From a virus: a stretch of DNA of 60,989 nucleotides. Location: IMG/VR virus record IMGVR_UViG_3300033153_004031, positions 1 through 60,989 of that record; one strand, given 5' to 3'. Under the pieces are notes generated by a model, which worked only from the letters and a program-made list of their open reading frames with translations, had not been told where the DNA came from and ran no database searches. The position numbers and the translations under genes are program-made. Shown in pieces: positions 5,994 to 19,639 of the stretch (within the stretch, counting starts at the first letter, position 1; every line of letters starts with the position of its first letter).

Positions 5994-6509
5994 ATGGCAC
6001 CGCATCTCACACCTAAACAGGAAGTTGACATAGTGCGCGCGTACACAATTGATCTCGTGCCCGCCCAAACCATAGCCGAGCAGTACGGGAGGACACGGCA
6101 AGCCATCTATAAACTACTCCATCGTCACGGCATCGAACCCTCAAACTATAGCACAATTGCCGTGTCTTGCCAAGCTTGTGGCAAAGAGGTTGATCGCCCC
6201 CGCTGCCGGCTACGACGAGCGAAGCGGATTTTCTGTGGTATCGATTGCTATTTCGCGTGGCTCGAAGCGCACCAAGACGGAACGTACCACCACAACAGAC
6301 ACGGGATGAGGATTGCCCGGAACGTCGTCTCGCGCCATTTTGACCTGCAACCTGGGCACGTTGTCCATCATAAAGATCGGGACACATTAAACAATCATCC
6401 TAACAACTTAATGGTTTTTGCAAACCAAGGAGACCACGTCCGATGGCACCGTGGGCAACCTGGTAACATCTACGGCGTTTCTCCACTTTGGGATGGCGCA
6501 TCTATTTGA
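5994..6509 (+). CDS. HNH endonuclease with N-terminal helix-turn-helix
   Basis: A 171-residue protein in three parts. Residues 1-45 form a resolvase-like HTH (TIAEQYGRTRQAIYKLLHRH). Residues 57-85 are a four-cysteine zinc knuckle (CQAC ... CGIDC). The C-terminal HNH motif runs from about 120 to 152 (VVHHKDRDTLNNHPNN, then HVRWH), where the two His of VVHH, the Asn residues and the final His form the metal-binding nuclease core. HNH proteins beside terminase genes support specific DNA cleavage during packaging in cos phages, and many others are homing endonucleases. Here it is convergent with, and overlaps by 40 bases, the putative small terminase gene. It has its own promoter and is the only plus-strand gene within the late block. 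Confidence 0.88.
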   Translation: MAPHLTPKQEVDIVRAYTIDLVPAQTIAEQYGRTRQAIYKLLHRHGIEPSNYSTIAVSCQACGKEVDRPRCRLRRAKRIFCGIDCYFAWLEAHQDGTYHHNRHGMRIARNVVSRHFDLQPGHVVHHKDRDTLNNHPNNLMVFANQGDHVRWHRGQPGNIYGVSPLWDGASI

Positions 6510-6976
6510 TCCACCGTATCACTCCCGGACGGATCACGGGGGAGAATCTGCCTGTGAAACGCAGCGATTGCGTCTTGGATAACCTGCCTCGCCTCGGGGC
6601 CCAAGTCTTCAATTACACTAACATTAGCGGTTGATTGGCCGCTGATTAACCGGCGCTTGTCCAGGAGCATTGACCAGGTTGCAGCGCGGTGTTTATCGGA
6701 CAATGGCTGATTCCCGGTGATAGCACTTAAAACAGAAACTTCTTTATGTAGTATAAAGGGAACTTCGTTATTCTGGTATTGTTTAACAGCCTCAATATAG
6801 TCTCTATGGGGTTGTAAACGTCGGACAATATTGGAATGATCGCACTCAACGAGTTTAGCGATCTCTCTAGTGCTCAGCCCTTGGATTGCCAGGGCGACGA
6901 TCCGCTCAATGGAAATATCCTTAACTGCCGTTACTGGCACTGGTGGTGATGCAGTGGTGGTCAATTTGGTTTGCAT
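6470..6976 (-). CDS. terS: Putative terminase small subunit (HTH DNA-binding protein)
   Basis: A 168-residue protein. A helix-turn-helix sits at about residues 35-55 (STREIAKLVECDHSNIVRRL), followed by a helical middle and an acidic, low-complexity C-terminus. This layout (DNA-binding N-terminus, oligomerising centre, acidic tail that contacts the large subunit) and the location in the leftward packaging operon fit a small terminase. No other small terminase candidate is evident. It could also be a generic HTH regulator. Confidence 0.55.
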   Translation of the reverse strand: MQTKLTTTASPPVPVTAVKDISIERIVALAIQGLSTREIAKLVECDHSNIVRRLQPHRDYIEAVKQYQNNEVPFILHKEVSVLSAITGNQPLSDKHRAATWSMLLDKRRLISGQSTANVSVIEDLGPEARQVIQDAIAAFHRQILPRDPSGSDTVDQIDAPSQSGETP

Positions 6977-7155
6977 TGGCCGCTCTTTTGTCTCCGTTGC
7001 CGCCTATCTATTTCGTCACACAACCGATCATACTCACTTGGATCAGACCGGGTATGTTTTGGTTTTGGGTTATCAGGCTCCGGCTCATTATCGGGATCAT
7101 ACCAACCAGCCCAGAACTGCCGCCCGTTGCGCCGGAAGTATTCATCAATGGGCAT
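6961..7155 (-). CDS. Small acidic hypothetical protein, first gene of the leftward block
   Basis: A 64-residue protein from ATG 7155 (an upstream in-frame TTG at 7167 is possible). It is aromatic at the N-terminus and then proline/acid-rich (WYDPDNEPEPDNPKPK), ending in a basic helix. It overlaps the start of the next gene by 16 bases and lies about 40 bases downstream of a good leftward promoter. Confidence 0.6.
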   Translation of the reverse strand: MPIDEYFRRNGRQFWAGWYDPDNEPEPDNPKPKHTRSDPSEYDRLCDEIDRRQRRQKSGQCKPN

Positions 7156-7205
7156 TACCAATATCAAATATCCTATAAACTCATATTATTCCCCCTATAC
7201 AGGAT

Positions 7206-7235
7206 ATTGTAATCATATTATCGATCAAATATCAA
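7206..7235 (-). promoter_or_regulatory. Leftward sigma-70-type promoter for the packaging/late block
   Basis: Read on the minus strand: -35 TTGATA at 7235-7230, an 18-base spacer, and -10 TACAAT at 7211-7206. It points toward the first leftward genes (7155 onward) and lies in the divergent control region next to the palindromes. Confidence 0.6.
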
Positions 7236-7263
7236 GCGTTTTTTTATTTTGCTCGCCGGAGTG

Positions 7264-7279
7264 GTTTCCATTTGGAAAT
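7264..7279. promoter_or_regulatory. Palindromic site 1 (TTTCCATTTGGAAA)
   Basis: A perfect 6-base inverted repeat TTTCCA-TT-TGGAAA at 7265-7278. Its centre is 21 bases (two helical turns) from that of site 2, so two dimers could bind side by side on one face of the DNA. Confidence 0.75.
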
Positions 7280-7284
7280 ATGCC

Positions 7285-7300
7285 GTTTCCATTTGGAAAC
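7285..7300. promoter_or_regulatory. Palindromic site 2 (GTTTCCATTTGGAAAC)
   Basis: A 16-base palindrome, the longest of the three in this region, with seven paired bases per arm. Centre at 7292.5. Confidence 0.8.
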
Positions 7301-7367
7301 CGTCAATGATGTCGGGGGCTTACTTTGTGTTATGATATGGAGTTATATGTTTGTTATATGTTGTCGG

Positions 7368-7383
7368 GTTTCCACTTGGAAAC
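7368..7383. promoter_or_regulatory. Palindromic site 3 (GTTTCCACTTGGAAAC)
   Basis: The third copy, with seven paired bases per arm and a CT centre. Its centre is 83 bases (about eight helical turns) from site 2, and it lies 98 bases upstream of the -24 element of the sigma-54 promoter. Confidence 0.8.
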
Positions 7384-7481
7384 ACTGGATGGGGGGAATA
7401 TCGGATTGACATCTATTTCGGATTGCGCTAACCATTTGATATCGCGTGATATGTTATGTTTTCCATTTTGTTTCCCAAAAG

Positions 7482-7497
7482 TGGCACGCGTGTTGCA
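7482..7497 (+). promoter_or_regulatory. Sigma-54 (RpoN) -24/-12 promoter of the early block
   Basis: TGGCACG at 7482-7488, four bases, then TTGCA at 7493-7497: a full match to the sigma-54 consensus TGGCACG-N4-TTGCW, with GG at -24 and GC at -12. The predicted start near 7508 lies 36 bases before the first early ATG (7544), which has an AGGGGGTGA ribosome-binding site. Sigma-54 promoters need an enhancer-binding ATPase at upstream sites, and the three palindromes at about -132, -215 and -236 are suitably placed. No such ATPase is encoded in the window, so it would come from the host. Confidence 0.7.
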
Positions 7498-7543
7498 TGA
7501 AAAATATGTGGAGTGTTTAACTGACCAACCAAGGGGGTGAAAA

Positions 7544-7684
7544 ATGAATTTCAATTTTTGGAGTCCGAGGATTTTATGGAAACTCGCATGGCGCGCCGCC
7601 CGCAGTGGCTACGGTGTGCCATATTTTCAGAGACACCCGAAATTTTACTGGATATATAAATTAGCGAAGGAGGTGCAAAAATGA
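7544..7684 (+). CDS. Small basic, aromatic protein, first gene of the early block
   Basis: A 46-residue protein rich in Trp, Tyr, Arg and Lys (FWSPRILWKLAWRAARS at the N-terminus), probably an amphipathic membrane- or nucleic-acid-binding peptide. It has a strong AGGGGGTGA ribosome-binding site, and its TGA overlaps the next ATG (ATGA). As the first product of the early transcript it is a candidate host-takeover factor, by position only. Confidence 0.65.
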   Translation: MNFNFWSPRILWKLAWRAARSGYGVPYFQRHPKFYWIYKLAKEVQK

Positions 7685-8193
7685 AAATCAATCCCCATAG
7701 CGAAACAAACCAACGGATTTGTGGGCGACTTGTTGAGGGGGAGGTTATTTATTGCATATCTCAACTAGTCTATGAGCTGGCGCAAAAAGCCGAACACTTC
7801 CGAGACTGGGAGGATGACCTTTACGGAGCCTTTGAAGGAAATCCCAATTACGAAGAAGCAGCGTTTCAGGCTGGGTGGAACCGTCAAAATGACGGTGTTT
7901 TTATCAACGGCGATCAGAAAAACGACACCGCCGAAGACTGGCAAGAACTTTGCGAAGATGAGGGAATTGACGCTAACGACTACCGCCCGGACGTTTATGA
8001 ACACTGGCTTGTTTCAAATTGGTTAGCCGGGAAGTTGGAAAACCACGGCGAGAAGGTAATCCGTGACTTTTTCGGTTTTAACGCTGTATGGTGTCGGACT
8101 ACCACTGGCCAAATGATCTCTATGGACTCAGTAATTTGGAAGATTGCTGAAGAGATGGAAATCCTAGAAGGTCAAAAAAACTCTTGGGCTTAA
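7681..8193 (+). CDS. Hypothetical acidic phage protein (170 aa)
   Basis: An acidic 170-residue protein with a GGAGGTG ribosome-binding site. Residues about 35-65 (WEDDLYGAFEGNPNYEEAA) and 100-125 (YRPDVYEHWLVSNWLAGKL) resemble a widespread phage/plasmid hypothetical family with an EHWIVSDWLA-type signature. No catalytic motif. The function is unknown; its early position and acidity would fit a DNA-mimic or antirestriction role, but that is a guess. Confidence 0.75.
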   Translation: MKINPHSETNQRICGRLVEGEVIYCISQLVYELAQKAEHFRDWEDDLYGAFEGNPNYEEAAFQAGWNRQNDGVFINGDQKNDTAEDWQELCEDEGIDANDYRPDVYEHWLVSNWLAGKLENHGEKVIRDFFGFNAVWCRTTTGQMISMDSVIWKIAEEMEILEGQKNSWA

Positions 8194-8235
8194 CTCTTGA
8201 AAAAACCGCTCAATTATCCAAGAGGAGGTGACACC

Positions 8236-8601
8236 ATGACACACACACCAGGACCGTGGCGAATTGACGACGTACAGGTTGAAGATTGGAGGGTTAATAT
8301 ATCGAGCCCCGAGTCAAATATTGCCTGCGCCTATCACCAAACAGATGACCCATCTAATGCGGACGATGAGTGTTTGGCCAACGCCCGCCTTATTGCCGCC
8401 GCGCCGGAGCTGTACGCCGCATTAGTGGAGTGTCTCACAATGAACGACAAGGGAGGCAACACTCGTGAAGACTTTGACCGATGGGAGCGCAAAGCCCGCG
8501 CCGCTATTGCCAAGGCGGAGGGGCGAAACGACAACCAAGGGGGTTTATTATGTCTGAAATTAAATGCGCTAAATGCGGACACAAAAATTAATAGGGGGTG
8601 A
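8236..8601 (+). CDS. Conserved phage hypothetical protein (NARLIAAAPEL family)
   Basis: A 121-residue protein. The start at 8236 is set by the GAGGAGGTGA ribosome-binding site; a longer frame upstream lacks one. It begins MTHTPGPW and carries the NARLIAAAPELYAAL helix typical of a very common small phage family of unknown function. The usual family C-terminus is reached around residue 100 (AAIAKAEG). The last 20 residues look like an out-of-frame translation of a following zinc-ribbon micro-ORF, suggesting a fusion or frameshift at the end. Confidence 0.8.
   Translation: MTHTPGPWRIDDVQVEDWRVNISSPESNIACAYHQTDDPSNADDECLANARLIAAAPELYAALVECLTMNDKGGNTREDFDRWERKARAAIAKAEGRNDNQGGLLCLKLNALNADTKINRG
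8550..8591 (+). pseudogene. Truncated CxxC zinc-ribbon micro-ORF
   Basis: ATG at 8550 with an AAGGGGG ribosome-binding site encodes only MSEIKCAKCGHKN before a TAA. It looks like the first knuckle of a zinc-ribbon protein cut short and overlaps the end of the preceding gene in another frame. It may be a remnant or a real micropeptide. Confidence 0.4.
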
Positions 8602-8605
8602 TATT

Positions 8606-9067
8606 ATGAAAGATCCAAAAAAAACTAGAGTTCAAAGATACTTGCGGGCGGATGATGAATGCCCTTGGTGCGGGAGCGACTTAATTATAAATGATAGTCA
8701 CCCCACGGTAGAAGTGGGTTTTGCGTGGAATGATTGTTCCTGTAAAACCTGTAACGCGGAGTGGCGGGATGAATACCGACTTTTTGCTATTTCCTGGCTT
8801 ACAGAAGATGGCAGAGATAGACGGTATAGCGACAAAAACCTACACATTAAGACAGGTGACGCTATGAATATCAACACGCTTAAAAATATCCACAAAAATC
8901 TTATTAATGGTAACCTTCGGGAAATGGCGGATGGTATCGATGGTTACGGTTTGTATGATTTCTGGGCGGATTATAACCAGTTTTTGACAGACCTTTGTAA
9001 CGAGGAGTCAGCATATCGTTATTTCGTTGACGCGGTGCGCGCCTATCATCGAATCCGATATAGATAA
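8606..9067 (+). CDS. Zinc-ribbon hypothetical protein (153 aa)
   Basis: A 153-residue protein. An N-terminal zinc ribbon has two knuckles (CPWC at about 20-23 and CKTC at about 47-50). The C-terminal half is helical (NTLKNIHKNLINGNLREMA) without a recognised fold. The ATG at 8606 follows an AGGGGGTGA ribosome-binding site, 5 bases after the preceding stop. Confidence 0.75.
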   Translation: MKDPKKTRVQRYLRADDECPWCGSDLIINDSHPTVEVGFAWNDCSCKTCNAEWRDEYRLFAISWLTEDGRDRRYSDKNLHIKTGDAMNINTLKNIHKNLINGNLREMADGIDGYGLYDFWADYNQFLTDLCNEESAYRYFVDAVRAYHRIRYR

Positions 9068-9130
9068 ACACATGGCATAATTTTGATATGATTAAAGAAA
9101 AGAGGACGTAATAAAAAACGTATTTTTTTC

Positions 9131-9159
9131 TTGACAAGTGGTTTTATTTTCTATATGGA
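9131..9159 (+). promoter_or_regulatory. Possible sigma-70 promoter inside the early block
   Basis: Perfect TTGACA at 9131-9136 in the 113-base gap after 9067. The -10 is either TATATG (15-base spacer) or TATGGA (17-base spacer), both weak. It could boost the nuclease and recombination genes that follow. Confidence 0.45.
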
Positions 9160-9180
9160 GATCGCAAAGGAATATAACCG

Positions 9181-9330
9181 ATGAAATGGATACTCTCAAT
9201 TTGTTTTGTAAGTGGCATTGTTTTGGCAGGTTCTGACGGTGCCTGGTTCCCGTGGATTAACCTATTAGGTGTAATCCTAATAAGTTTAGTCGGGATTGTT
9301 ACCAACATTAAAACCCCATCGGAGTATTAG
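9181..9330 (+). CDS. Small membrane protein (49 aa)
   Basis: A 49-residue protein with two hydrophobic segments (ILSICFVSGIVLA at about 4-16; INLLGVILISLVGIV at about 27-41) and a ribosome-binding site AAAGGA. It ends with TAG, four bases before the next ATG, which is in the same frame. Function unknown. Confidence 0.6.
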   Translation: MKWILSICFVSGIVLAGSDGAWFPWINLLGVILISLVGIVTNIKTPSEY

Positions 9331-9333
9331 GAA

Positions 9334-10215
9334 ATGCCACCAAAATGGTTTAAATGCCCCGATGGGCAACACGTCGAAATTAAAGCCTGTTTAAAACCAA
9401 TGGGGTGCATCATAGGAAAACGGTGTGCCCCATTGCCATATCTACAAATGGTCGGCCATGAGCGGCCTTACAACGGCGTTACGGCGTCAATGAGCGGTAA
9501 TGGGCCTCGTTATATCTACCTAACCACAACAGTACCTTACACGGTAGACCCTGCCGAGTCCGCCTATGCGTTTATGGGAAACCTATCCCATCTAAAGGCG
9601 GCACAACACGACGATAACGTGATTGCAGAGGAAAATGTGGGCGTTGGCACACTTGACCTGCTCAGTGAAGACGAAACTAATCCCGGGCACTATCTGGTCG
9701 AAGATTATAAAACCTATGGCAGCTACCGCGCTGCCAAAGTCTTGGGTATCGTATGCGACGAGAAGCCGGTTATTGGTGACGATGGCAAGCCCGTATTGCT
9801 AAAATCCGGGAAGAATAAGGGAAAACCAAAGATTGAAAAGGTCTTCCGGCGCGATCCGGCCAGCGCTGATGTTTACGGGGAACAGCTGCAACTATCACGA
9901 TATGCCATAGAGGCCGAGAAAAGGGGCTTCCCGATCTCCCGCCTTATGCTTTTTATTGTCCCGCGTGATGGCGGCACTTTTGTATCCCAAACACGTGGCA
10001 TCACTGAAAAAATCTATTACATCGAAATTCCCCGTATTTCCAATCAAGAGGTGTGTCATTACTATGACACGCTTCAGGCCGAAATTGATAATGCCTTTGA
10101 CACCGGGTATGCCCGGATTTGTAACCCTTGGGAATCTTGGGATTATAGGAGATGCAAGGGGTATTGCCCCGTGTCAAAAGAGTGTGGGGCTATGACTGAA
10201 AAGAGGGGGAAATAA
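9334..10215 (+). CDS. PD-(D/E)XK nuclease, Cas4/RecB-like, with cysteine clusters
   Basis: A 293-residue protein. The nuclease core shows GVGTLDLLS (acidic D108), then VEDYKTY (D124-x-K126), and the QLQLSRYA motif (QxxxY) at about 195 that defines the RecB/Cas4 group. N-terminal cysteines (8, 19, 25, 31) and a C-terminal cluster (RRCKGYCPVSKEC) could bind an Fe-S cluster, as in Cas4 and AddB. Such phage enzymes act as 5'-3' exonucleases that make single strands for annealing proteins. The next gene is a candidate annealing protein, giving a two-gene recombination pair. Confidence 0.8.
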   Translation: MPPKWFKCPDGQHVEIKACLKPMGCIIGKRCAPLPYLQMVGHERPYNGVTASMSGNGPRYIYLTTTVPYTVDPAESAYAFMGNLSHLKAAQHDDNVIAEENVGVGTLDLLSEDETNPGHYLVEDYKTYGSYRAAKVLGIVCDEKPVIGDDGKPVLLKSGKNKGKPKIEKVFRRDPASADVYGEQLQLSRYAIEAEKRGFPISRLMLFIVPRDGGTFVSQTRGITEKIYYIEIPRISNQEVCHYYDTLQAEIDNAFDTGYARICNPWESWDYRRCKGYCPVSKECGAMTEKRGK

Positions 10216-10260
10216 TTTTAATCGCCATGAAAGGGGTTGGAAGCCCCGTGGAGGGTAAAA

Positions 10261-11226
10261 ATGACGAATGAAACAGCAGTCGTTGTTCGTGATGTGAATT
10301 TTGAAGAACACGCCATGACGCCGGAGCGTATCCGCAGCCAGGTAAATCTGATTCAAGAGGTCATGCGCGGCGTCATGAAGGAAGGGGAGCATTACGGTGT
10401 TATCCCTGGATGTGGGAACAAACCTAGCCTCTTAAAATCTGGTGCCGAAAAATTATCGACAACATTTCGGCTTGCTCCATCCTACAATATCGAAAAAACA
10501 GATTTACCAAATGGACACCGAGAATACGAGGTTATTTGCACGCTAACCCATATCAATTCCGGGGTCGAAGTCGGTCAGGGTGTTGGTTCTTGCACCACAA
10601 TGGAAAGTAAATACCGCTACCGAAAAGGTGAGCAGAAATGCCCAAAATGCGGGAAAGAAGCAATTATTAAAGGCAAGAAAGAATACGGTGGCGGCTGGTT
10701 GTGTTACCAAAAAAAGGGTGGGTGTGGAGCCAAATTTCAAGACGGTGATCCTGCCATTGAAAACCAAAATATGGGTCGGATTGAGCACGACAACCCCGCT
10801 GACTATTTCAACACAGTTTTTAAGATGGCTAAAAAAAGGGCGTATGTTGACGCCGTTATAACATCGACAGCCGCGAGTGATTTTTTTACTCAAGATATTG
10901 AGGACATGGCAGAAGTTATTGCGCCTAACAACTCGCCCCCCGCGCCTTCCGGGTCCACCTCCTACCCGGATAATAACACTCCACCCCCAGCGGGGGGCAT
11001 CCCTTCCAAGGCGGCAACGGCAGCACAAGCGAAAAAAATATACGCCACCGGTGCCGCGAAGGGAGCAAGTAAAGAACTCGTTACCGAAATGTGCCGCTGG
11101 TATCGGAAGGGGGATAAAATGACCAAAGAGGAAGCATCTTATATTATTGAAAATTTCGATGATGTGATGAAACGGTACATGGACGACGAGCTGGGGCCGG
11201 AAGATGAGCCTGACGAAGCCGCCTAA
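10261..11226 (+). CDS. Putative single-strand annealing/DNA-binding protein with zinc-ribbon insertion
   Basis: A 321-residue protein. The N-terminal two thirds (GEHYGVIPGCGNKPSLLKSG, then beta-rich sequence, then FKMAKKRAYVDAVI) matches a conserved phage family that neighbours exonucleases and is thought to resemble Rad52/ERF-type annealing proteins; I could not test this. A zinc ribbon (CPKCGK ... CYQK ... CGAKF, about 122-160) is inserted in the middle. A proline-rich linker (about 222-252) leads to a small helical C-terminal domain with an acidic tail. It follows the Cas4-like nuclease. The start at 10261 has a GGAGGGTAAAA ribosome-binding site. Confidence 0.6.
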   Translation: MTNETAVVVRDVNFEEHAMTPERIRSQVNLIQEVMRGVMKEGEHYGVIPGCGNKPSLLKSGAEKLSTTFRLAPSYNIEKTDLPNGHREYEVICTLTHINSGVEVGQGVGSCTTMESKYRYRKGEQKCPKCGKEAIIKGKKEYGGGWLCYQKKGGCGAKFQDGDPAIENQNMGRIEHDNPADYFNTVFKMAKKRAYVDAVITSTAASDFFTQDIEDMAEVIAPNNSPPAPSGSTSYPDNNTPPPAGGIPSKAATAAQAKKIYATGAAKGASKELVTEMCRWYRKGDKMTKEEASYIIENFDDVMKRYMDDELGPEDEPDEAA

Positions 11227-11533
11227 AATAATTCGGTGCGCCGATTGCGGTTGTGCCGTTGTAAAAACCAGCCGGCAGTGCCGTTGTGCGGAGTGCCAAA
11301 AGAAACACAATTATATCAAACGGCAACAATGGGCGCGGGAATTACGGACGGAGTATAAGGATAGTAATTACGAACACTTGACAGAATATCGTATTGGAGA
11401 GGTCGCCGCCGCATACGGACACGCGTACACATGGGCGCAGAGTGCGGAGATGGGCGGTTTGCGAAAACTTGAACGTAACCCAATCATGGCCGCGCTTTAC
11501 CTTGAGCGCGTAGACCCGGATTTTTATTTTTAA
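11204..11533 (+). CDS. Zinc-knuckle protein with sigma-region-4-like HTH (paralogue A)
   Basis: A 109-residue protein starting 23 bases inside the preceding gene. An N-terminal two-knuckle zinc finger (CADC ... CAEC, about 12-30) is followed by a HTH-like segment (RIGEVAAAYGHAYTWAQSAE) and the C-terminal stretch LRKLERNPIMAALYLERVDPDFYF. The same arrangement and the same DFYF ending occur in the protein at 16277-16591, so the two are paralogues. The HTH here is more degenerate. Possible role: recruiting or redirecting host RNA polymerase. Confidence 0.7.
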   Translation: MSLTKPPKIIRCADCGCAVVKTSRQCRCAECQKKHNYIKRQQWARELRTEYKDSNYEHLTEYRIGEVAAAYGHAYTWAQSAEMGGLRKLERNPIMAALYLERVDPDFYF

Positions 11534-11562
11534 AAGACCGCGATGATGAACCCGCATTAAAT

Positions 11563-11590
11563 AACACGGCCAAGGGAGGGGCCGGGTGTT
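11563..11590 (+). other. Stem-loop 1 in the leader of the 11684 gene
   Basis: AACAC/GTGTT and GGCC/GGCC stems separated by a two-base bulge, loop AAGGGAGG. Part of a 150-base untranslated stretch between two early genes. Confidence 0.5.
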
Positions 11591-11634
11591 GGTTCGGAAG
11601 GAAGTGGAGACCGTGTCAAAAGGGAAAGACAGAA

Positions 11635-11659
11635 CCAGGGGCTAGCGGTCGGCCCCTGG
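11635..11659 (+). other. Stem-loop 2 in the leader of the 11684 gene
   Basis: A perfect 8-base-pair GC-rich stem CCAGGGGC / GCCCCTGG with a 9-base loop. No U-run follows, so it is not an intrinsic terminator. It ends 24 bases before the ATG at 11684, just upstream of the AAAAAGGGGG ribosome-binding site. Confidence 0.55.
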
Positions 11660-11683
11660 GGATGTCGGCAAAAAGGGGGTAGA

Positions 11684-11938
11684 ATGAGTTCAAGAGATTT
11701 AAAAAACACATGGGCTTGGGAATGTCCGGCGCATCAGTGTAAGATGCTGACCGACGCGACGTGCAAGAGGAGGCGGGCTCGGATTTTAGAATATCTATCC
11801 GGCAAGGTGGGCGAAAACAGTATGCACCCGTTTTATGATCTCCGTGACCCATGGTTGTGTGTGGGGTGCCAACACTGGGAAGGCCCTGTTGTTTTACCGG
11901 CGGAAAGCGAACCAGCGTATGAGAGCATCGGAGCGTAA
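11684..11938 (+). CDS. Cysteine-rich phage hypothetical protein (84 aa)
   Basis: An 84-residue protein with cysteines in pairs (CPAHQC at about 14-19; CVGC near 59-62), probably zinc-binding. It has an AAGGGGG ribosome-binding site, and its TAA is immediately followed by the ATG of the prim-pol gene. Proteins of this size commonly precede phage replication genes; function unknown. Confidence 0.7.
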   Translation: MSSRDLKNTWAWECPAHQCKMLTDATCKRRRARILEYLSGKVGENSMHPFYDLRDPWLCVGCQHWEGPVVLPAESEPAYESIGA

Positions 11939-13801
11939 ATGCCGAGTCCCACAAATGTACTCTATCGGACAGCACTTGCATATCGGCGATTGGGGATGTC
12001 TGTGATACCGTGTAAAAAAGATAAGAAACCCCTGGTTAGCTGGGCCGAGTACCAAGGCCGACATCCATCCGAGGATGAGATACGGCAATGGTGGGATAAA
12101 TGGCCCACTGCCAATATCGCCATCGTTGCGGGGAAAATCAGCGGTGTGGATGTCATCGACTGTGACGACCAGGATGCATATAACCTGCTCAACGACACCT
12201 ACCTGCCGGACGATTTTATCACCCCGGTCGCAAAGACGCCGAGAGGCTACCATGTTTATTTTGCCCACAAAACTGGCTTGTCCAATGCCGTGAGGGTCAT
12301 CCCTGGCACCGACCTCCGCACGACCGGTGGTTATGCGATAGCGCCGCCGAGCCAAAACGGAGGCGGCGCGTCCTACGCATGGGTGGATGGGTTAGCATTG
12401 GGTAAAGTTGCATTGGCACCCATGCCGGATATTCTCTATGATACTCTAGAGCAATATATATATAATAATATTAATAATAATATTATTAGCATTGGGTCTA
12501 GTAGCTACTATCAACGTAGTACAGATAATCCACAAAGTACAGATAACCATCCTAGTCCCTTCTGCAATTCTAGTACCAAGATGGATACTATACGCGCGCG
12601 CGCGGCTAGTGTCGGGGAAAATGTTGACAAAGTGTTGACACGAAGTTACCAAAAGTTGACGGGGGGCGAGAAATGTTACCATGATGTTGACACGGCCCAA
12701 AATGTCAACAAATGTCAACAATTATTCCAAAAGGGGAGCCGCGACGACGACCTTTTCCACCTTGCCAACTGCCTTGTAAAAGGCGGATACGAGCCCGATA
12801 AACTACAAACGGTGTTGCAAATTATCGCCCACAATTGCACACCACCCTATCCCGAAAAAGACATCCGCGTAAAAATCCTGTCCGCCATAAAACGACAAGA
12901 GGCTAGGGATAAGACCCTTGCAACCGAGGTTAGGGATTGGATTGACTCCGGCAATGGCACGTTTACAAATACAGACATATACCAGGATTTAAAAATCACA
13001 GGCCGTGTAGAGCGCCAGAACCTTTCTAAAATCCTCAAGCGCTTGGCGGATGACGGATTGATTGAGAGAGACGGCAAAAAGTACGGTAAATGGCGCATTA
13101 TTGACCGGTCTGTGATGGAACAATGCTGGTGGGAAGACGACGGCCAACCGTTGCCGCTAAAATTCCCCTTGGGTGTCGAAATGTTCGTGCGGATTTTTCC
13201 GGGGAATTTAATCCTCCTGGAGGGTCAAAAATCGCAGGGAAAGTCAGCCTACGCCTTAGAGTTTTGCCGGTTGAACCACGAGTTGTTCGGCGGTAAGGCG
13301 CTGTACCAGAACGTAGAGATGTCCAATAGCGAGCTAGTCCAGCGTTTCCTTTCGTATCAGCAAGAGGACATGATGTCGCTGGATGATTGGCGCAATGCGA
13401 TTACGGTTATCCGGCAGACGGGCGATTGGTGGGACAAAATCGAGCCGGACGGGTTGAATGTGGTTGATTACCTTGTGGAGTACGAAAAGGCGTACATGAT
13501 TGCGGAGTTTGTCTGGAAAATACACCAAGCGCTAAAAAACGGTATCGCATTGGTGACGGTTCAGCGAGACCCGTACAAACCTTATCCTGTCGGCGGGCGG
13601 GGCGTTCGGGATATTCCCCGGCTGGTGTTGAGCCTGATGAAGCACCGGCTGCGGATTGAAGACGCAAAGAGTTTTGATACAACCTACGGAAACCCGAGCG
13701 GTTTGGTGCGAAAATATAAACAAGCATCATGGTGGAAATTCGTTCCCGTGGGTACGTGGCAGTATGCGGAGGAGGAAAAATATGCCGCTTTCAAAGGCTA
13801 A
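11939..13801 (+). CDS. Bifunctional primase-polymerase / DnaB-like helicase fusion
   Basis: A 620-residue replication protein. Residues 1-165 form a prim-pol domain (AEP superfamily): the acidic catalytic motif VDVIDCDD near 69-76, HVYF near 103, and RTTGGYAIAPPS near 123. A low-complexity Asn/Ser-rich linker (about 172-210), encoded by very AT-rich DNA, follows. Residues about 250-400 are helical with a winged-helix-like part. The C-terminal RecA/helicase-like domain carries a Walker A GQKSQGKS near 430. The protein would prime and unwind DNA, replacing host DnaG and DnaB. Repeats likely to form the origin lie inside the gene. Confidence 0.85.
   Translation: MPSPTNVLYRTALAYRRLGMSVIPCKKDKKPLVSWAEYQGRHPSEDEIRQWWDKWPTANIAIVAGKISGVDVIDCDDQDAYNLLNDTYLPDDFITPVAKTPRGYHVYFAHKTGLSNAVRVIPGTDLRTTGGYAIAPPSQNGGGASYAWVDGLALGKVALAPMPDILYDTLEQYIYNNINNNIISIGSSSYYQRSTDNPQSTDNHPSPFCNSSTKMDTIRARAASVGENVDKVLTRSYQKLTGGEKCYHDVDTAQNVNKCQQLFQKGSRDDDLFHLANCLVKGGYEPDKLQTVLQIIAHNCTPPYPEKDIRVKILSAIKRQEARDKTLATEVRDWIDSGNGTFTNTDIYQDLKITGRVERQNLSKILKRLADDGLIERDGKKYGKWRIIDRSVMEQCWWEDDGQPLPLKFPLGVEMFVRIFPGNLILLEGQKSQGKSAYALEFCRLNHELFGGKALYQNVEMSNSELVQRFLSYQQEDMMSLDDWRNAITVIRQTGDWWDKIEPDGLNVVDYLVEYEKAYMIAEFVWKIHQALKNGIALVTVQRDPYKPYPVGGRGVRDIPRLVLSLMKHRLRIEDAKSFDTTYGNPSGLVRKYKQASWWKFVPVGTWQYAEEEKYAAFKG
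12451..12487. other. AT-rich tract, candidate DNA unwinding element
   Basis: About 37 bases of almost pure A/T made of TATA and TAATAATA units inside the prim-pol gene, coding for the Asn-rich linker. It lies 135 bases before the iterons, as in lambda-type origins where an AT-rich segment adjoins the initiator sites. Confidence 0.55.
12518..12546 (+). repeat. Direct repeat AGTACAGATAA, two copies
   Basis: AGTACAGATAA at 12518-12528 and 12536-12546, 18 bases apart. The first overlaps TAATCCACA, one base different from the DnaA box TTATCCACA. It lies between the AT-rich tract and the iterons. Confidence 0.5.
12622..12720. repeat. Iteron cluster TGTTGACA, likely replication origin core
   Basis: Exact TGTTGACA occurs at 12622-12629, 12633-12640 and 12685-12692 on the plus strand, and as its complement TGTCAACA at 12703-12710 and 12713-12720. 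A degenerate copy (GTTGACG) is at 12655-12661. Five exact octamers in 99 bases is far above chance. The tandem pairs are 11 and 10 bases apart, one helical turn, as expected for initiator binding. Confidence 0.7.
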
Positions 13802-14024
13802 GGATATTCAATTTGATTTTGACGAGATGAAGTGGCGCGGGATCACAATAGACCAGGTGAAGTTTTGGGAAGACGCCTACCCGAACGTGGACGTGGTGGG
13901 TGTCCTGACCAAAAAGATGCCCGCGTGGATGGACGCAAACCCCCACAAGGCCCGTAAAAAGAATTACAAGCGGTTTATCGTGAATTGGTTGTCGAGGGAA
14001 CATGACAGAAAAAACAACAAATAA
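13782..14024 (+). CDS. Replisome-organizer C-terminal-like protein
   Basis: An 80-residue basic protein. The sequence around residues 24-72 (VKFWEDAYPNVDV, then MPAWMDANPHKAR, then RFIVNWLSRE) matches the small C-terminal domain that ends many phage replisome organizers and helicase-loading proteins, here as a stand-alone gene. The ATG at 13782 has a GGAGGAGG ribosome-binding site and overlaps the end of the prim-pol gene by 20 bases, so the two are probably made together. Confidence 0.7.
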   Translation: MPLSKAKDIQFDFDEMKWRGITIDQVKFWEDAYPNVDVVGVLTKKMPAWMDANPHKARKKNYKRFIVNWLSREHDRKNNK

Positions 14025-14044
14025 TGAAGGGAGAAAGCGATTAA

Positions 14045-14341
14045 ATGGAACCGATTTTTATCTTGAACCCAGAAAGCGAATACAACGATGGGGTAATGTT
14101 GGAATATCGTAACGGTGAATATTCATTGGTCAAAGCGCGACGCGGGGCGGGGGGAACGGCTTATATGGATTGGTGCTACCCGCAGGGTAAGGACCGTATG
14201 CCGGGAACAAAGGCGATTCCATGGAAGATTCCTCTGGGGAACAAGGAAACCGCACTGGAGATTTTAAGCCAGATAGCAAAAGCCCTGCGAGGTGAGGATG
14301 TTGAGACACCTCTGCCGGTTCAGGGCGACGTGCCGTTTTAG
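14045..14341 (+). CDS. Putative single-stranded DNA-binding protein with SSB-like tip
   Basis: A 98-residue protein. Residues about 15-75 are beta-rich followed by one helix (TALEILSQIAKAL), a PC4-like strand/helix order. The end QGDVPF copies the DxPF tip by which SSB proteins bind replication partners. It sits in the replication cluster and ends in TAG overlapping the strong TAGGAGGAG ribosome-binding site of the next gene. No separate SSB is otherwise visible. The call rests on the tip, size and position. Confidence 0.5.
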   Translation: MEPIFILNPESEYNDGVMLEYRNGEYSLVKARRGAGGTAYMDWCYPQGKDRMPGTKAIPWKIPLGNKETALEILSQIAKALRGEDVETPLPVQGDVPF

Positions 14342-14349
14342 GAGGAGTC

Positions 14350-15141
14350 GTGAAAAGGAAAACCGCCTATAAAGTGTTGGATACCGTCATGACCAGCCCG
14401 TTTAAAAAATTTAAATATGAAATTGGATATGAGTATCACTGTGAAGATTTCGACGAAGATAAAAATAAAGATTGCGGCAGGGGGTTGTATGCTACCAATA
14501 TCGACGGTCTATTGTACTCATTTAACATCTATCGACGAGTCTTTCTTTGCGAGGTTTGGGGCAAAGCTGTTGAAATAGGCCGATACAAACGGAGGTATGA
14601 ATATCTAAGGTTGATCGAGGAAGTTCCACACAGTGAAATCAAGCGCCTTGCAACTCTAAAGGAACCGGAGGTTGGTTTTAAGTTGGCCGAGGCCCTTTTT
14701 CCGGTAAACCCATTACTATTGCCGAAAAATAAACCAAACAAAAAAGATATTGAGAATATGAAGCGGTGGGTTGGCGTGTGGTACAGGGCGTGGAATAGTG
14801 TGGCGGATAGTGTGAAGGACAATATGGGAGTCGATACGTGGGATAGCGTGGGGCGTAATTTTTATTGTAATATGAGGTGTGGGGAATACGGGGGGGCTTG
14901 GGGGGGCCTCTTGCGTAGGGATAGTGTGTGGGATGGGGTGAGAGCATATATTTCGTCTTTGTTTCCAAATATAAAAAAATGGAAATATATTAACCACGAA
15001 GAGGGCAAAAACCCGTTCCAGCCGTGTATTGATCTTTGGCACAGAGGGTTTGTACTAAGTTATTCACCGACTTATGACGGTTATAGGTGGAGATTACACT
15101 CGGGAAAAAACGCGGATATCGTATATGAACGGAAACCATAA
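14350..15141 (+). CDS. Conserved phage hypothetical protein (DUF7666-like N-terminus, DSV-type repeats)
   Basis: A 263-residue protein starting with GTG after a GGAGGAG ribosome-binding site. The N-terminus (CEDFDEDKNKDCGRGLYA) resembles the small DUF7666-type domain found in many phage proteins. The centre (about 140-205) has loosely repeated VWYRAWNSVADSV / DTWDSV / DSVWDGV units. The C-terminus ends PFQPCIDLWHRGFVLSYSP and WRLHSGKNADIVYE, seen in phage and metagenome hypotheticals. Function unknown. Confidence 0.8.
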   Translation: MKRKTAYKVLDTVMTSPFKKFKYEIGYEYHCEDFDEDKNKDCGRGLYATNIDGLLYSFNIYRRVFLCEVWGKAVEIGRYKRRYEYLRLIEEVPHSEIKRLATLKEPEVGFKLAEALFPVNPLLLPKNKPNKKDIENMKRWVGVWYRAWNSVADSVKDNMGVDTWDSVGRNFYCNMRCGEYGGAWGGLLRRDSVWDGVRAYISSLFPNIKKWKYINHEEGKNPFQPCIDLWHRGFVLSYSPTYDGYRWRLHSGKNADIVYERKP

Positions 15142-15143
15142 CA

Positions 15144-15449
15144 ATGAACTGCTTATACTGCCAAAAGGAATTAAAACCCAAAGAAGGGGAATCCCCGAGC
15201 AAGTTTAGGGCGCGGGCGTACTGCGACAATACATGCTACCGGGAGCATATACGCCAGTACGGGGGGTGGTCTACATGGGCCGAGTTGGAGTTTTTGAAAT
15301 CAATCGGGAAACATTCGACCCTTAAGGTGCCCAAGCGGGATTTGTTAAAGGGGTATCTGGAGGGCGCTAAAAAGAGGGTGGAATGGGGAGCTATTAGCGA
15401 GCCGATTGTTGTCCAGAGGGTGAAGGAGATGCTGGGGGCGGAGATATGA
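15144..15449 (+). CDS. Zinc-finger hypothetical protein (101 aa)
   Basis: A 101-residue protein with an N-terminal CLYC ... CDNTC zinc knuckle (about 3-31) followed by a basic helical domain. It starts two bases after the previous stop and overlaps the next gene by 4 bases (ATGA). A DNA-binding or HTH-associated role is plausible. Confidence 0.7.
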   Translation: MNCLYCQKELKPKEGESPSKFRARAYCDNTCYREHIRQYGGWSTWAELEFLKSIGKHSTLKVPKRDLLKGYLEGAKKRVEWGAISEPIVVQRVKEMLGAEI

Positions 15450-15958
15450 AAATGGAACACATGGTGTTTTTCGAGAATGGCTTTGATTGTATTTTGTTCG
15501 AGTGCGTACATGGCAACAAAAACTGTAAGCCAAATTCCTGGGGGTCGCATGGGCGGCAGGGCTTGCAAATTCGCTTCGTGTCAAAGGGAGACCTTGGGGC
15601 TGTGCAGTTTGTTATTTATACCGGGTGGGCTCCACAATATGTTGCGCCGTTCGATATTGGTTGCCGTCGTTGCGATTGGGGTAGCACACCTCCTATACCA
15701 GTAGACTTGGGTTACCATTCTAAAACTCCAATATATGAGGGGGACGAGCCAATTTCAGAGTCTTGTAATTTTTTGGACGGTGCGCCGTGTTATTATGACG
15801 GTAGCATCCTAAACGCAGGCGACGCCATGTATGCACTGGTAAATGGTGGAGATGAGGCACTATGGGCGTTTCTTGATGCCTATTACGAATCGGTTTTTAA
15901 CGACGCTCCCTATCCCCAACCCGCAGAGTTTAAGATGCCTCTGAGAAAGATGGGGTAA
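15446..15958 (+). CDS. Conserved phage hypothetical protein (170 aa)
   Basis: A 170-residue protein with a beta-rich N-terminal half and several cysteines (CKPNSWGSHG, CRRCDWG, CNFLDGAPCYYDGS). The APCYYDGS and DALWAFLDAYY-type sections belong to a family common in early regions of environmental phages, annotated only as hypothetical. It overlaps both neighbours by 1-4 bases. Confidence 0.75.
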   Translation: MKMEHMVFFENGFDCILFECVHGNKNCKPNSWGSHGRQGLQIRFVSKGDLGAVQFVIYTGWAPQYVAPFDIGCRRCDWGSTPPIPVDLGYHSKTPIYEGDEPISESCNFLDGAPCYYDGSILNAGDAMYALVNGGDEALWAFLDAYYESVFNDAPYPQPAEFKMPLRKMG

Positions 15959-16290
15959 TGGCAAATAAATCTAATTGGAAGGGGCGGGAGAGACAAGTGG
16001 CAAGTTTTTTTGGGTGCAAACGCGTTCCCCTTTCAGGTAGTAATTCGGGACACAACACCAGTTCGGACACGCTCCATAAATTACTATATATCGAAGTTAA
16101 GACAAGAGTTAAGTGGGCGATATTAAATCTATATTTTAAGATTCTGCCAAAGGCCATATCAGAGGACAAGGTTCCTGTAATTGCTATATGTAAAAAACAT
16201 AGCAAGGGGTTCTGGTTGTTAGTAAACGCAAACGATTTACTAACTATTGCTAAGGCCAGGGAAGAAGCAATCAAAAATGGGGCTGAGTAA
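15958..16290 (+). CDS. Holliday-junction-resolvase-like PD-(D/E)XK nuclease
   Basis: A 110-residue protein close to the archaeal Hjc/phage resolvase pattern: GRERQVASFF with E11, RVPLSGSNSG, acidic D37, then YIEVKTR with E46-x-K48. These are the metal ligands and lysine of the family. It would process recombination or replication junctions ahead of packaging. Start and stop overlap neighbouring genes (TAATG upstream; 14 bases downstream). Confidence 0.8.
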   Translation: MANKSNWKGRERQVASFFGCKRVPLSGSNSGHNTSSDTLHKLLYIEVKTRVKWAILNLYFKILPKAISEDKVPVIAICKKHSKGFWLLVNANDLLTIAKAREEAIKNGAE

Positions 16291-16591
16291 TACTTACCAC
16301 GAGTTAATATGTGAGTCATGCGGGAAAACGCATTATAGTAAGACCACGCGTAAACAGCGGTGCGACGAGTGTAACCCCCGTGCTGTTCGCCGCCGTCGGG
16401 CTAGCAGGGAGAACATCCGATCCCGTGGTTGGGACGACCACTGCTATACACAGAGGGACGTGGCGGAGTTTTTCGGGATTTCAACACAACGGGTAAACCA
16501 AATAGAAAAGGCGGCGATAGCGAAGCTGCGAAAAAACCCATTGCTTAGGTGCCTTTGGCTTGAGCGTCAAATATCGGATTTTTATTTTTAA
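16277..16591 (+). CDS. Zinc-knuckle protein with sigma-70 region-4-like HTH (paralogue B)
   Basis: A 104-residue protein from ATG 16277. Residues about 11-32 hold a CESC ... CDEC zinc knuckle. Residues about 58-87 ([20 protein letters not shown], then [10 protein letters not shown]) closely follow sigma-70 region 4.2, the part that reads the -35 element. The ending [12 protein letters not shown] matches paralogue A at 11204-11533. No region 2 is present, so it is not a complete sigma factor. It may be an anti-sigma/co-sigma factor or transcription activator. It overlaps the resolvase gene by 14 bases. Confidence 0.75.
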
Positions 16592-16599
16592 GGGGAAAC

Positions 16600-16842
16600 A
16601 TGAAATACACCGAAGCCGAGCATGCGAAAATTTTACTACGGATGCTGGAGGAACCAAACCCGTGCGATCTCTGTCCGGTGGCCTTTACGATACTTCGTGT
16701 AACAAAAGATGGATGTTGTAGAATATGTCTTAGTTTTGTTGGGATTTTGGAACATACTCTCCAATGCCCGTGTGGGTATTTTGGAGAGCATGAAGCAATC
16801 AAGCGCACCTGGCTGGCGCTGGAAGAAAAGGGATATATTTAA
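16600..16842 (+). CDS. Cysteine-rich phage hypothetical protein (80 aa)
   Basis: An 80-residue protein with cysteines at CDLCP, CCRIC and CPCG, probably zinc-binding, and a helical C-terminus ([17 protein letters not shown]) seen in a family of small early phage proteins of unknown function. AGGGGA ribosome-binding site; the TAA overlaps the next ATG. Confidence 0.75.
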
Positions 16843-17009
16843 TGTCTTGGGAAGATGATGGGTATTACTGTCGTGAAGCCCTATACGAAATCGCCATGGG
16901 GTCTGAGGAGCCTACCAAGAGCCGTATGCTGCGGTTATTGGCATCGTATAGGTATCGGAAGAATCATCTGATCTGGGAGCAAAAGAGCCGGAAGGAGAAG
17001 GAAAAATGA
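16842..17009 (+). CDS. Small charged protein (55 aa)
   Basis: A 55-residue protein whose ATG overlaps the previous TAA (TAATG) and whose TGA overlaps the next ATG. Mostly helical, basic C-terminus ending KSRKEKEK. No family recognised; the coupling on both sides supports that it is translated. Confidence 0.6.
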   Translation: MSWEDDGYYCREALYEIAMGSEEPTKSRMLRLLASYRYRKNHLIWEQKSRKEKEK

Positions 17010-17365
17010 TAATTATTGGGGTATGCCTTGTGTTTATCGTTGCGGGGATTCTCTCGGCTTAGTGGCGTGGCTGGGATAGCGTTCTTGCCGCAATTCTTCT
17101 GGCAGTTGGTAGTGTTTTGGCCTTTGCCGTTGTTGTTACCATTTTGTCCGTACAACTTACCGTTCGTGGGGATATTGTGGGTTTTAAGGAAACTAAAGCT
17201 ACCGTTGAACGGGCGAGGGAAACGGGGAGTTGGATAGAACGGGCCGCACTACAACAGGAGGTAATACGGGCAAATACGTGGTTGGCAAGGGTGAAATACT
17301 GGAATAAAACAGTATTTGACTTGTGGATACCCGATGCTGTGGATGATTTGGAGCCGATACGGTAA
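17006..17365 (+). pseudogene. Membrane-protein frame interrupted by an in-frame TAG
   Basis: ATG at 17006 overlaps the previous stop and opens a frame with a first hydrophobic segment (MIIIGVCLVFIVAGILSA), then TAG at 17060-17062. The same frame then continues for 100 sense codons to TAA: a second hydrophobic segment (AAILLAVGSVLAFAVVVTIL) and a soluble helical tail. This two-segment membrane protein with a cytoplasmic tail is plausible only if the TAG is ignored. It may be a mutation, a sequencing error, a suppressed stop, or two separate products; a TTG at 17117 could start the second part. Confidence 0.55.
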
Positions 17366-17372
17366 ATTAAAT

Positions 17373-17594
17373 ATGAATAAATGGGCTAAAAGTGTGATAG
17401 ACAGATACACTGAATTGCAACGCAGTAAGTCGGTTATGGTGCGCGTGTTTTTGAAAGATGCGTATAATTATGCCTTATCAATCAAGGCAAGGGAGCAAGA
17501 GCTGTATGACGGTATCGACCGGGCAGAACCCTTCTTTTTTCACACACTGCTATACAATGCTCGTCAAGAGGTCCCTCAAAGAGCGGTTGTTTAG
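17373..17594 (+). CDS. Hypothetical helical protein (73 aa)
   Basis: A 73-residue helical, basic protein (WAKSVIDRYTELQRSKS; NYALSIKAREQEL). It ends in TAG at 17592, after which the frame stays open for another 10 codons to TAA. The ribosome-binding site is weak, so translation may depend on the gene upstream. Confidence 0.55.
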   Translation: MNKWAKSVIDRYTELQRSKSVMVRVFLKDAYNYALSIKAREQELYDGIDRAEPFFFHTLLYNARQEVPQRAVV

Positions 17595-17672
17595 CCTACC
17601 GTGGAGACCGAGACAAAAATTTAAAAGAGTCTTAAAAGGATAATTGTTGGGCCGACAGGTGGGGGGATTGAC

Positions 17673-18056
17673 GTGAAACTCAATAGAAGACAATTTTTAA
17701 AAGTACTAGGAATAACATCTATTGCTGCTTTTGTTGATCCCTTAAAAGCACTTGAGGGGGTGGCAAGGGGAACATATAATTTTACTCCGGGAGATTATCT
17801 TCGTAATGCTATCTTTATAAAAAAACCAGCAAGTTCTTGGACAGAGAAGGAAAGATGTAATTTTGTGTCTATATTAGATGATTGGTTGAGAAAAAAAGTT
17901 CATCCTGATTATTTAGATTTCAACAAAGTGGAGTATCTTTTTAGCGATCTCGTTTGGGGAATGAAGGGAGGGGTGGCAATTGGTTATCATGTACCAGAGG
18001 AACCCATAATTAGAAGAATCAGACCTATAAATAGATCGGGACTAAAAGTAAAGTGA
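17673..18056 (+). CDS. Small protein with twin-arginine (Tat-like) leader
   Basis: A 127-residue protein from GTG 17673 with a GGGGGATTG ribosome-binding site. It begins MKLNRRQFLKVLGITSIAAF: the RRQFLK of a Tat signal followed by a short hydrophobic core. The rest (FTPGDYLRNAIF, a WTEKERCNF stretch, DYLDFNKVEYLF) matches no family I know. Similar leaders occur at 22080 and 24338. If functional, it would be exported folded by the host Tat system; phage Tat substrates are uncommon. Confidence 0.7.
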   Translation: MKLNRRQFLKVLGITSIAAFVDPLKALEGVARGTYNFTPGDYLRNAIFIKKPASSWTEKERCNFVSILDDWLRKKVHPDYLDFNKVEYLFSDLVWGMKGGVAIGYHVPEEPIIRRIRPINRSGLKVK

Positions 18057-18232
18057 AACCTCGCATCCCCAAATCCACCCGCCCACTGAAGATAATTGAG
18101 CCCAAAAAGGGCGGGCGATACAAGCGCCGTGCGTGGAGACCATCTAACGACTGCGAAGATGACCACGAGTATTATAAAATCGTGATGCAACGGGTAACTT
18201 GCCCGATTTGTGGGAAAACATTTTACAGGTAG
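18053..18232 (+). CDS. Small basic protein with C-terminal CPICGKTF knuckle (59 aa)
   Basis: A 59-residue protein from GTG 18053, overlapping the previous TGA by 3 bases. The first 30 residues are very basic. The C-terminus carries CPICGKTF, half of a zinc finger, with an earlier Cys and a His as possible further ligands. It ends in TAG, 9 bases before the next ATG in the same frame. Confidence 0.6.
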   Translation: MKPRIPKSTRPLKIIEPKKGGRYKRRAWRPSNDCEDDHEYYKIVMQRVTCPICGKTFYR

Positions 18233-18241
18233 GGGGAAGCC

Positions 18242-18589
18242 ATGAACACACCATCAATTAGGCCGTATTATTATTACGAGTACGACAACCAAAGGAGACC
18301 CAAAGTCACCGTGTGTTTGTTGTGTAACGGAGACCCGGAGCCTGTGCCGATTTCGCGCGGTATCGCGATATGCTCCGATTTGGACATGCCCAGGAAAAAA
18401 ACAGGCCGGCAGATCGCGCTGGGGCGTGCCGTATCCGCCGCTAAGAGGCGCGAAACGGGAGACCAGATGATTCGGTACGAGGCGTGGGTGAGCGGGGCGC
18501 ACTTTATCAGTGAATACAAGCGGGAGTTCCAGCCCAAGTTGACCGACAAAGAGCGGGCGATTCTGTACGGGTGGAAGGAGGCGGCGTGA
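18242..18589 (+). CDS. Conserved phage hypothetical protein (115 aa)
   Basis: A 115-residue protein with a GGGGGAAG ribosome-binding site. VTVCLLC, then RGIAICSDLDMPRKKTGRQI and ALGRAVSAAKRR are typical of a common early phage family of unknown function. The TGA overlaps the next GTG. Confidence 0.75.
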   Translation: MNTPSIRPYYYYEYDNQRRPKVTVCLLCNGDPEPVPISRGIAICSDLDMPRKKTGRQIALGRAVSAAKRRETGDQMIRYEAWVSGAHFISEYKREFQPKLTDKERAILYGWKEAA

Positions 18590-18786
18590 CCAAGAAGAAG
18601 GAGAAGCCAATCACTTTGAATTTTTATACTGACCATATTGATTTTAGCGGCAATATCGACAATGTGGATATTGAGAACCCATACCACTTACTTGCGCTAG
18701 CTATTTTTCTTTGTTTGAGGGACGGAAACGACGATTTCTTTGACGTAATATTTAAAATCATAGATGATTTTGGAGCGTCTGAATGA
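18586..18786 (+). CDS. Small acidic protein (66 aa)
   Basis: A 66-residue protein from GTG 18586 overlapping the previous stop (GTGA). A basic start (TKKKEKP) is followed by acidic, hydrophobic helices (PYHLLALAIFLCLRDGNDDF). No family recognised. Confidence 0.6.
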   Translation: MTKKKEKPITLNFYTDHIDFSGNIDNVDIENPYHLLALAIFLCLRDGNDDFFDVIFKIIDDFGASE

Positions 18787-18814
18787 AGCGTGGTTATATC
18801 AGGAAGAAGGGAAG

Positions 18815-19168
18815 ATGAAAGAATATCACAGTTTTATAGAGGGGGTAAAAAAAGACGCGAACCGAGTTGAACCTGTTTTAAATCACTTGCGTCAAATTAT
18901 TTACAACTATCCGCCAAATAAATACCCAGAGCCGATACCATCTTCATTTCAAGTAACTAATAAGCCATACCTAAGTGGCATTGAGTGGTTTTTTCTTTGG
19001 GGTGGGCGCCCCATTGTGATTTCTGTTTTTCAAGCCGACCCTGAATGGGTTGTGGACCACATATCTTTTGAACCCGACGACGAGGGGAAAATTCTATCCC
19101 AAACATGGCCTAATGGTTTTAAGGAATGGTTGATTTGTACTAGACCGGGAGGAAGGAGTTGTGAGTAA
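18815..19168 (+). CDS. Hypothetical protein (117 aa)
   Basis: The product is 117 residues. The start at 18815 is chosen because AGGAAGAAGGG lies just upstream; the frame is open back to 18764, overlapping the previous gene. The N-terminus is helical and the C-terminal half aromatic and beta-rich (IEWFFLWGGRPIVISVFQAD). No family recognised. Confidence 0.6.
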   Translation: MKEYHSFIEGVKKDANRVEPVLNHLRQIIYNYPPNKYPEPIPSSFQVTNKPYLSGIEWFFLWGGRPIVISVFQADPEWVVDHISFEPDDEGKILSQTWPNGFKEWLICTRPGGRSCE

Positions 19169-19232
19169 GTTTAATAATTTAATTGAAATATGGCCGGATA
19201 TTGAGACCATGCCAAAAGGCGGCAAGAAATGA
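19161..19232 (+). CDS. Possible 23-residue leader peptide
   Basis: GTG 19161 with a very strong GGAGGAAGGAG ribosome-binding site encodes 23 residues and ends in a TGA that overlaps the ATG of the next gene. It may be a real micropeptide or a translational-coupling leader. Confidence 0.4.
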   Translation: MSKFNNLIEIWPDIETMPKGGKK

Positions 19233-19639
19233 AATTAAATATACCGAGTAGCGAATACCCCTTTTTTAAAAGTGTTCTTTCTGAGGGTGTGGATTATATT
19301 CGGAATCTTCATTGGGGCCATCTCACCAAAGAAGAGCAGGAAATGATCGGAAAAATTACTGCGTTGATATGGCTACCCGAACATTGTGAATATATTGCAA
19401 GTGAGGGGGGTAAGATGATATTCAAAGTTAAAAGAGACGCAGAAAAAAGGGGGGATGTTGTGGAACTGTATTTAAAACGGGGTAATGAGAAGGGCACTGT
19501 AGTATTGTGCTGTAAAAACCCTGGGGGGGGTGAGCAATGTTTAATGGAATTCAGAGACGGGGCATTTGTGCGTTGTCGCTTTGTCAGTATAGATGGTATT
19601 AAAAAAGATGAGGAGTGTAGGATTATCGAGGATTACTAA
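19229..19639 (+). CDS. Hypothetical protein (136 aa)
   Basis: A 136-residue protein with a helical N-terminus and a beta-rich C-terminal half (KGTVVLCCKNPGGGEQCL). The ATG overlaps the stop of the small upstream ORF. No family recognised. Confidence 0.65.
   Translation: MKLNIPSSEYPFFKSVLSEGVDYIRNLHWGHLTKEEQEMIGKITALIWLPEHCEYIASEGGKMIFKVKRDAEKRGDVVELYLKRGNEKGTVVLCCKNPGGGEQCLMEFRDGAFVRCRFVSIDGIKKDEECRIIEDY

Follow-up and report, generated by a model that had tools for sequence, protein, structure and literature searches.

The region between positions 7265 and 7508 of the phage DNA studied here (60,989 bases, hereafter the window, meaning the whole stretch that was analysed) is probably an enhancer-dependent promoter that, judging from its sequence, would place the rightward (replication) operon of the phage under the control of a host two-component regulator. 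A sigma-54 promoter gives no transcription unless an ATPase has been activated, and a phage that starts its replication genes through one would make its infection depend on a single host signalling pathway. Neither RpoN nor a PF00158 activator domain was found among the proteins encoded in the window, in agreement with the earlier note, which had seen no enhancer-binding ATPase. Given that the phage lacks both proteins and carries a control region with the sites and spacing of one found in sulfate-reducing-type bacteria (Desulfobacterota), it appears to be switched on by a host regulator. The elements of this region, and the genes that follow it, are:

7206..7235, minus strand: divergent sigma-70-like promoter TTGATA-18-TACAAT, facing first a short leftward ORF (from 7155), then the HTH gene (6976-6470) and, farther on, the terminase
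7265..7278, no strand: UAS1, TTTCCATTTGGAAA palindrome, predicted enhancer-binding-protein site; the same palindrome lies 5' of the host sRNA promoter
7286..7299, no strand: UAS2, TTTCCATTTGGAAA, 21 bp from UAS1; 21-bp pairs are also found in L106, L111, L119 and L120
7369..7382, no strand: UAS3, TTTCCACTTGGAAA, starting 113 bp before the sigma-54 site (122 bp for the host proximal site)
7429..7441, plus strand: IHF-consensus site TAACCATTTGATA (YAANNNNTTGATW, 9/9), 40 bp before the sigma-54 site
7482..7497, plus strand: sigma-54 promoter, -24/-12, TGGCACG-CGTG-TTGCA, exact consensus and unique in the window
7508..7543, plus strand: predicted 5' leader with ribosome-binding site AAGGGGGTG, its start deduced from the -12 element
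7544..7684, plus strand: gene 1 of the rightward operon, 46 aa, no assigned function; the ORF overlaps the next gene, which begins at 7681
7681..8193, plus strand: gene 2, 170 aa, weak PHROG match to phrog_26364 (unknown function)
9334..13801, plus strand: rightward genes for replication; among their products are a phrog_10048 protein (10237-11226) and a Prim-Pol/helicase protein (11939-13801)

The sequence TGGCACGCGTGTTGCA at 7482-7497 on the plus strand is an exact sigma-54 consensus, with the -24 GG and -12 GC elements present at the correct spacing, and there is no other exact match in the window. According to a first-order Markov model built on the window, 0.016 exact matches would be expected by chance in 61 kb, both strands together, and about 5e-5 in the 390-bp intergenic region on the correct strand. 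The sole site with one mismatch, TGGCACGGGTCTTTCA at 55274, has lost the -12 GC and lies inside the structural region. Both the perfect match and the lack of a second one, as pointed out in the earlier note, are thus borne out. The -12 GC corresponds to 7495-7496, which sets the predicted transcription start at ~7507-7508. The ATG that follows, preceded by the ribosome-binding site AAGGGGGTG, lies at 7544, 47 bp 3' of the sigma-54 site, and not at 7545, as had been noted before; that an early-gene ATG follows the promoter stands, the operon being presumably an early one given its gene content.

The promoter was all that had been noticed previously; palindromes and an IHF site can now be added to the sigma-54 site, and the control region is accordingly larger. 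The window contains three exact copies of TTTCCAYTTGGAAA and no more (7265-7278, 7286-7299 and 7369-7382), all of them in the same intergenic region; they are of the same type as the predicted sites found 5' of host sigma-54 promoters. The IHF consensus, a feature that is common but not obligatory in sigma-54 promoters, is present between these putative enhancers and the promoter, and has just two other perfect matches in the 61 kb when both strands are considered. One near-copy of the palindrome, TTTCCGTGTGGAAA, occurs at window positions 24073-24086, within an ORF resembling anaerobic ribonucleotide reductase (NRDD).

Palindromes located between divergent promoters could also be the operators of a phage repressor in a lambda-like switch, which would make the sigma-54 match a coincidence. 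The leftward sigma-70-like promoter gives the region the divergent layout of such a switch, and tandem palindromes without a good adjoining sigma-54 site occur in the viral contigs L083-L085, lying in L083 and L084 5' of a gene for a TerS-like HTH protein. This explanation is nevertheless very unlikely, given that none of the genes scanned was recognisable as that of a CI-like repressor and that the rightward sigma-70 promoter that it requires, with operators overlapping it, is not evident: no good promoter of this type was found on the plus strand in 6900-7544, where a TTGACA at 7406 has a best -10 partner of only 3/6. Nor does it account for the exact sigma-54 match, for an IHF site placed 40 bp from it, or for the likeness to host promoters described below. 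For the 168-aa HTH-like protein encoded at 6470-6976, neither Pfam nor PHROG gave a match. Between the leftward genes there is also an HNH endonuclease gene (window 5994-6509, plus strand) that looks like a mobile insertion. Phage early promoters are normally of the sigma-70 type, as in the case of lambda PR, which leads from a divergent control region to replication genes and needs no activator ATPase; the promoter predicted here is similarly divergent toward replication genes and differs in being enhancer-dependent.

The host counterparts of this control region were found by scanning a set of genomes for tandem pairs of TTTCCANNTGGAAA, without any requirement for a sigma-54 site. The scan retrieved 32 loci, 8 of them in Desulfobacterota and 24 elsewhere. 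A properly placed sigma-54 site lies downstream in 6/8 of the Desulfobacterota loci, scoring 12/12 in L106, L111 and L119 and 11/12 in L096, L120 and L125, and a seventh locus (L123) has a site of 10/12, whereas the score of 11/12 was reached by 0/24 of the loci from other phyla. The tandem palindromes of Bacteroidota, Verrucomicrobia and others were set aside, given that no sigma-54 site of 11/12 lies within 350 bp of them. Seven loci of Bacteroidota and Verrucomicrobia (L101, L103, L105, L108, L113, L114 and L124) contain arrays of TTTCCANNTGGAAA with periods of ~21 or 42 bp and without sigma-54 sites.

In L106, L111, L119, L096 and L123 the palindromes are located directly 3' of the gene of a response regulator of the NtrC family, which in the two tested comprises a receiver, a sigma-54 activation domain and a Fis-type HTH, and wherever the contig extends far enough the regulator gene is preceded by that of a histidine kinase. 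RpoN is encoded in 7/7 host genomes tested, and the regulator was found in 120/147 genomes of the class. The pattern of palindromes and sigma-54 site gives one match each in 4/291 genomes of the order, at the regulator/RNA locus, and the palindrome itself is present in about 2-6 exact copies per host genome. The phylum-wide scan for the exact pattern gave a match in 1/395 genomes, because the exact palindromes and their spacing are confined to one branch. In L120 (3979-4163, genome G006) the RNA locus lies beside a TPR gene, and the best regulator homologue is on another contig, C34.

The palindromes and the sigma-54 promoter of the hosts precede an RNA of ~70 nt with a conserved CU-rich stretch, which resembles an anti-Shine-Dalgarno sequence, and an intrinsic terminator whose stem has two-sided changes at 7/11 pairs. 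Together these RNAs make up a sigma-54-driven Desulfobacterota family encoded beside the NtrC-type regulator, with the conserved sequence UUUUYCUCCUUAAYGG and a covarying terminator stem. An Rfam search with the host RNA and the window returned no match. Members of this RNA family are located at:

L106:5603-5690, with equivalents in L111, L119, L145, L148, L149, L151-L153, L155, L159, L163, L170 and L200

Given that in the hosts the target is an sRNA bearing an anti-Shine-Dalgarno-like stretch, and that a host genome has only about 2-6 exact palindromes and the phage three, the many phage copies produced could act as a decoy, titrating the regulator away from the small-RNA promoter, with phage transcription being secondary. 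We consider this highly improbable, since titration calls for neither a perfect sigma-54 promoter nor an IHF site spaced as in the hosts, and would not need a ribosome-binding site and an ORF that are well placed.

The layout of the host circuit recalls that of GlrK/GlrR-GlmY of enterobacteria, where an NtrC-type activator of a two-component system acts on a neighbouring sRNA through a sigma-54 promoter with an IHF site; the likeness is one of layout only, given that the RNA and the binding site differ. Also similar in layout, and from a sulfate reducer, is DVU0679 of Desulfovibrio vulgaris, a response regulator that targets Dv_sRNA2, encoded just 3' of its own gene (Rajeev et al. 2011, PMC3333781), and for which orthologs are reported in Desulfovibrio, Desulfotomaculum acetoxidans and Symbiobacterium (PMC3333781). 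As in the present circuit, a regulator adjoins its sRNA target, but no phage is involved. Response regulators that act on an sRNA next to their own gene are already known (PMC3333781), and so are promoters that depend on an enhancer. A link of phage genes to rpoN has likewise been described for the operons of the Fels-2 prophage of Salmonella LT2, the genes of which are down-regulated in the wild type versus the rpoN mutant (PMC3844500); in the parts of that report consulted, no phage-borne enhancer sites are described for Fels-2 (PMC3844500). In the literature searched, largely open-access papers, no phage replication operon controlled by a host circuit of this kind was found described. The host circuit, with its regulator, its site specificity code and its unlisted small RNA, is a testable system by itself.

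Comparison of the phage control region with those of the L106/L111/L119 group reveals that they have in common the site sequence, the 21-bp pair spacing, the gap between IHF and sigma-54 sites, and TGGCACGCnnGTTGC. The pair spacing of 21 bp in the phage is within the host values of 21-22 bp, with 22 bp found in hosts of the SGLNK type, and the orientation relative to the sigma-54 site is correct. The IHF-to-sigma-54 gap is exactly 40 bp in the phage, L106, L111, L119, L145, L151 and L155, versus 47-53 bp in most others. The sequences that fill these 40 bp agree between phage and host at only 10-12/40 positions, which is about chance. That binding sites and distances are conserved and the filler is not speaks for a functional role, and against coincidence as well as recent copying, so that the sites seem to have been kept common to phage and hosts by selection. 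The phage differs from this group in having a third palindrome, and its pair sits at -217/-196 from the sigma-54 site versus -143/-122 in the hosts, that is, about 74 bp farther upstream.

The type of palindrome points to the type of regulator. Regulator genes with their downstream regions were taken from L143-L172 and L176-L215, and in 27/27 readable loci the site is TTTCC..GGAAA where the recognition helix has a lysine, and TTCAA..TTGAA where it has a tryptophan or glutamine. Part of the sites in this count were read by eye, including those of L143 and L156, which the automatic rule skips, and the value of 5e-8 for the 27/27 concordance ignores phylogeny and was not used as a probability. 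The specificity residue is the second position after SGL or SGF, the helices of the K type being SGLSK, SGLNK and SGFNK. Joint changes of protein and site are expected if the regulator binds these sites, phylogeny being ignored here as well. The phage palindromes, TTTCCANNTGGAAA, are of the lysine type, which makes an NtrC-type response regulator with a lysine at the specificity position of the recognition helix the candidate activator of the phage promoter. We infer that the actual host carries a regulator of this type and that it would bind the three phage palindromes.

In the mechanism that we propose, the phosphorylated host AAA+ response regulator of the NtrC family, which in its own genome adjoins and apparently drives one small RNA, would bind the three TTTCCANNTGGAAA sites, IHF at 7429-7441 would bend the DNA between enhancers and promoter, and the activator ATPase would contact and open the RNA polymerase-sigma-54 complex parked at 7482-7497. 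The transcript would run from about 7508 through the rightward genes, including that of the Prim-Pol/helicase replication protein. An infection-triggered envelope signal as the inducer is an attractive guess, nothing more. It is reasonably likely, with less assurance than the assignment of the promoter itself, that the phage gates its replication operon through this two-component/sigma-54 circuit by means of a functional copy of the whole control region (enhancers, IHF site and sigma-54 site) of the circuit's only evident chromosomal target, one small RNA, and that infection proceeds or pauses according to the state of one host sensor kinase.

How far this control reaches is a separate question. 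Sigma-70-like matches in 7400-26400 number 42 versus 30.5 +/- 5.7 expected from shuffled sequence, and include 24692 (11/12, TG) and 9065-9092; being modestly above expectation, they leave room for secondary promoters, which may free later genes from sigma-54 dependence. It is therefore possible, though we hold it to be the less probable case, that the sigma-54 promoter is real but auxiliary or conditional, and that the bulk of the block is transcribed from internal or unrecognised sigma-70 promoters; the excess is of about 2 SD, and no good plus-strand sigma-70 promoter was found ahead of the first genes. Of the sigma-54 control of an entire early block put forward in the earlier note, control by a host enhancer-binding protein is strongly supported, and its reach over the whole block is what the internal sites leave in doubt.

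The tie to a specific class of regulator narrows the possible hosts of this uncultured phage. With the terminase, the phrog_10048 protein and the product of the 170-aa gene as queries, no phage relative spanning the promoter was found; the one close relative, L001 (5.3 kb, terminase 92%), ends before the promoter region, and the others are distant. A host in Desulfobacterota has indirect support: apart from L001, the nearest relatives of the terminase are in Desulfobacterales genomes (37-45% identity), the best identity to an isolate phage among the matches listed being 26%. The terminase-bearing stretches of these genomes have only the terminase in common with the window, and no such promoter was found in them. 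In tetranucleotide similarity to the phage the Desulfobacterota loci rank high, though not uniquely; hosts of the L106 type have a GC content of about 41% versus 49.8% for the virus record and are not the best k-mer match. At window positions 23679-24116 a short ORF matches only the C-terminal end of NRDD, which is consistent with an anaerobic host.

Among viral contigs, the matches in L086-L090 from the scan for palindromes with a sigma-54 site were rejected as chance matches within coding sequence, and scans with a larger gap and with the TTCAAA variant gave no matches. In the unrelated viral contig L082 (L093:8386-8510) tandem TTTCCANNTGGAAA with a spacing of 17 bp are followed 80 bp on by TGGCATGACTCTTGCT. 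No match to the IHF consensus was found in L082, and its promoter may answer to a different regulator. The palindromes and the perfect sigma-54 match of L082 precede a TerS-like gene, the terminase and portal-like genes, a layout which suggests that the arrangement is not unique to the phage studied here.
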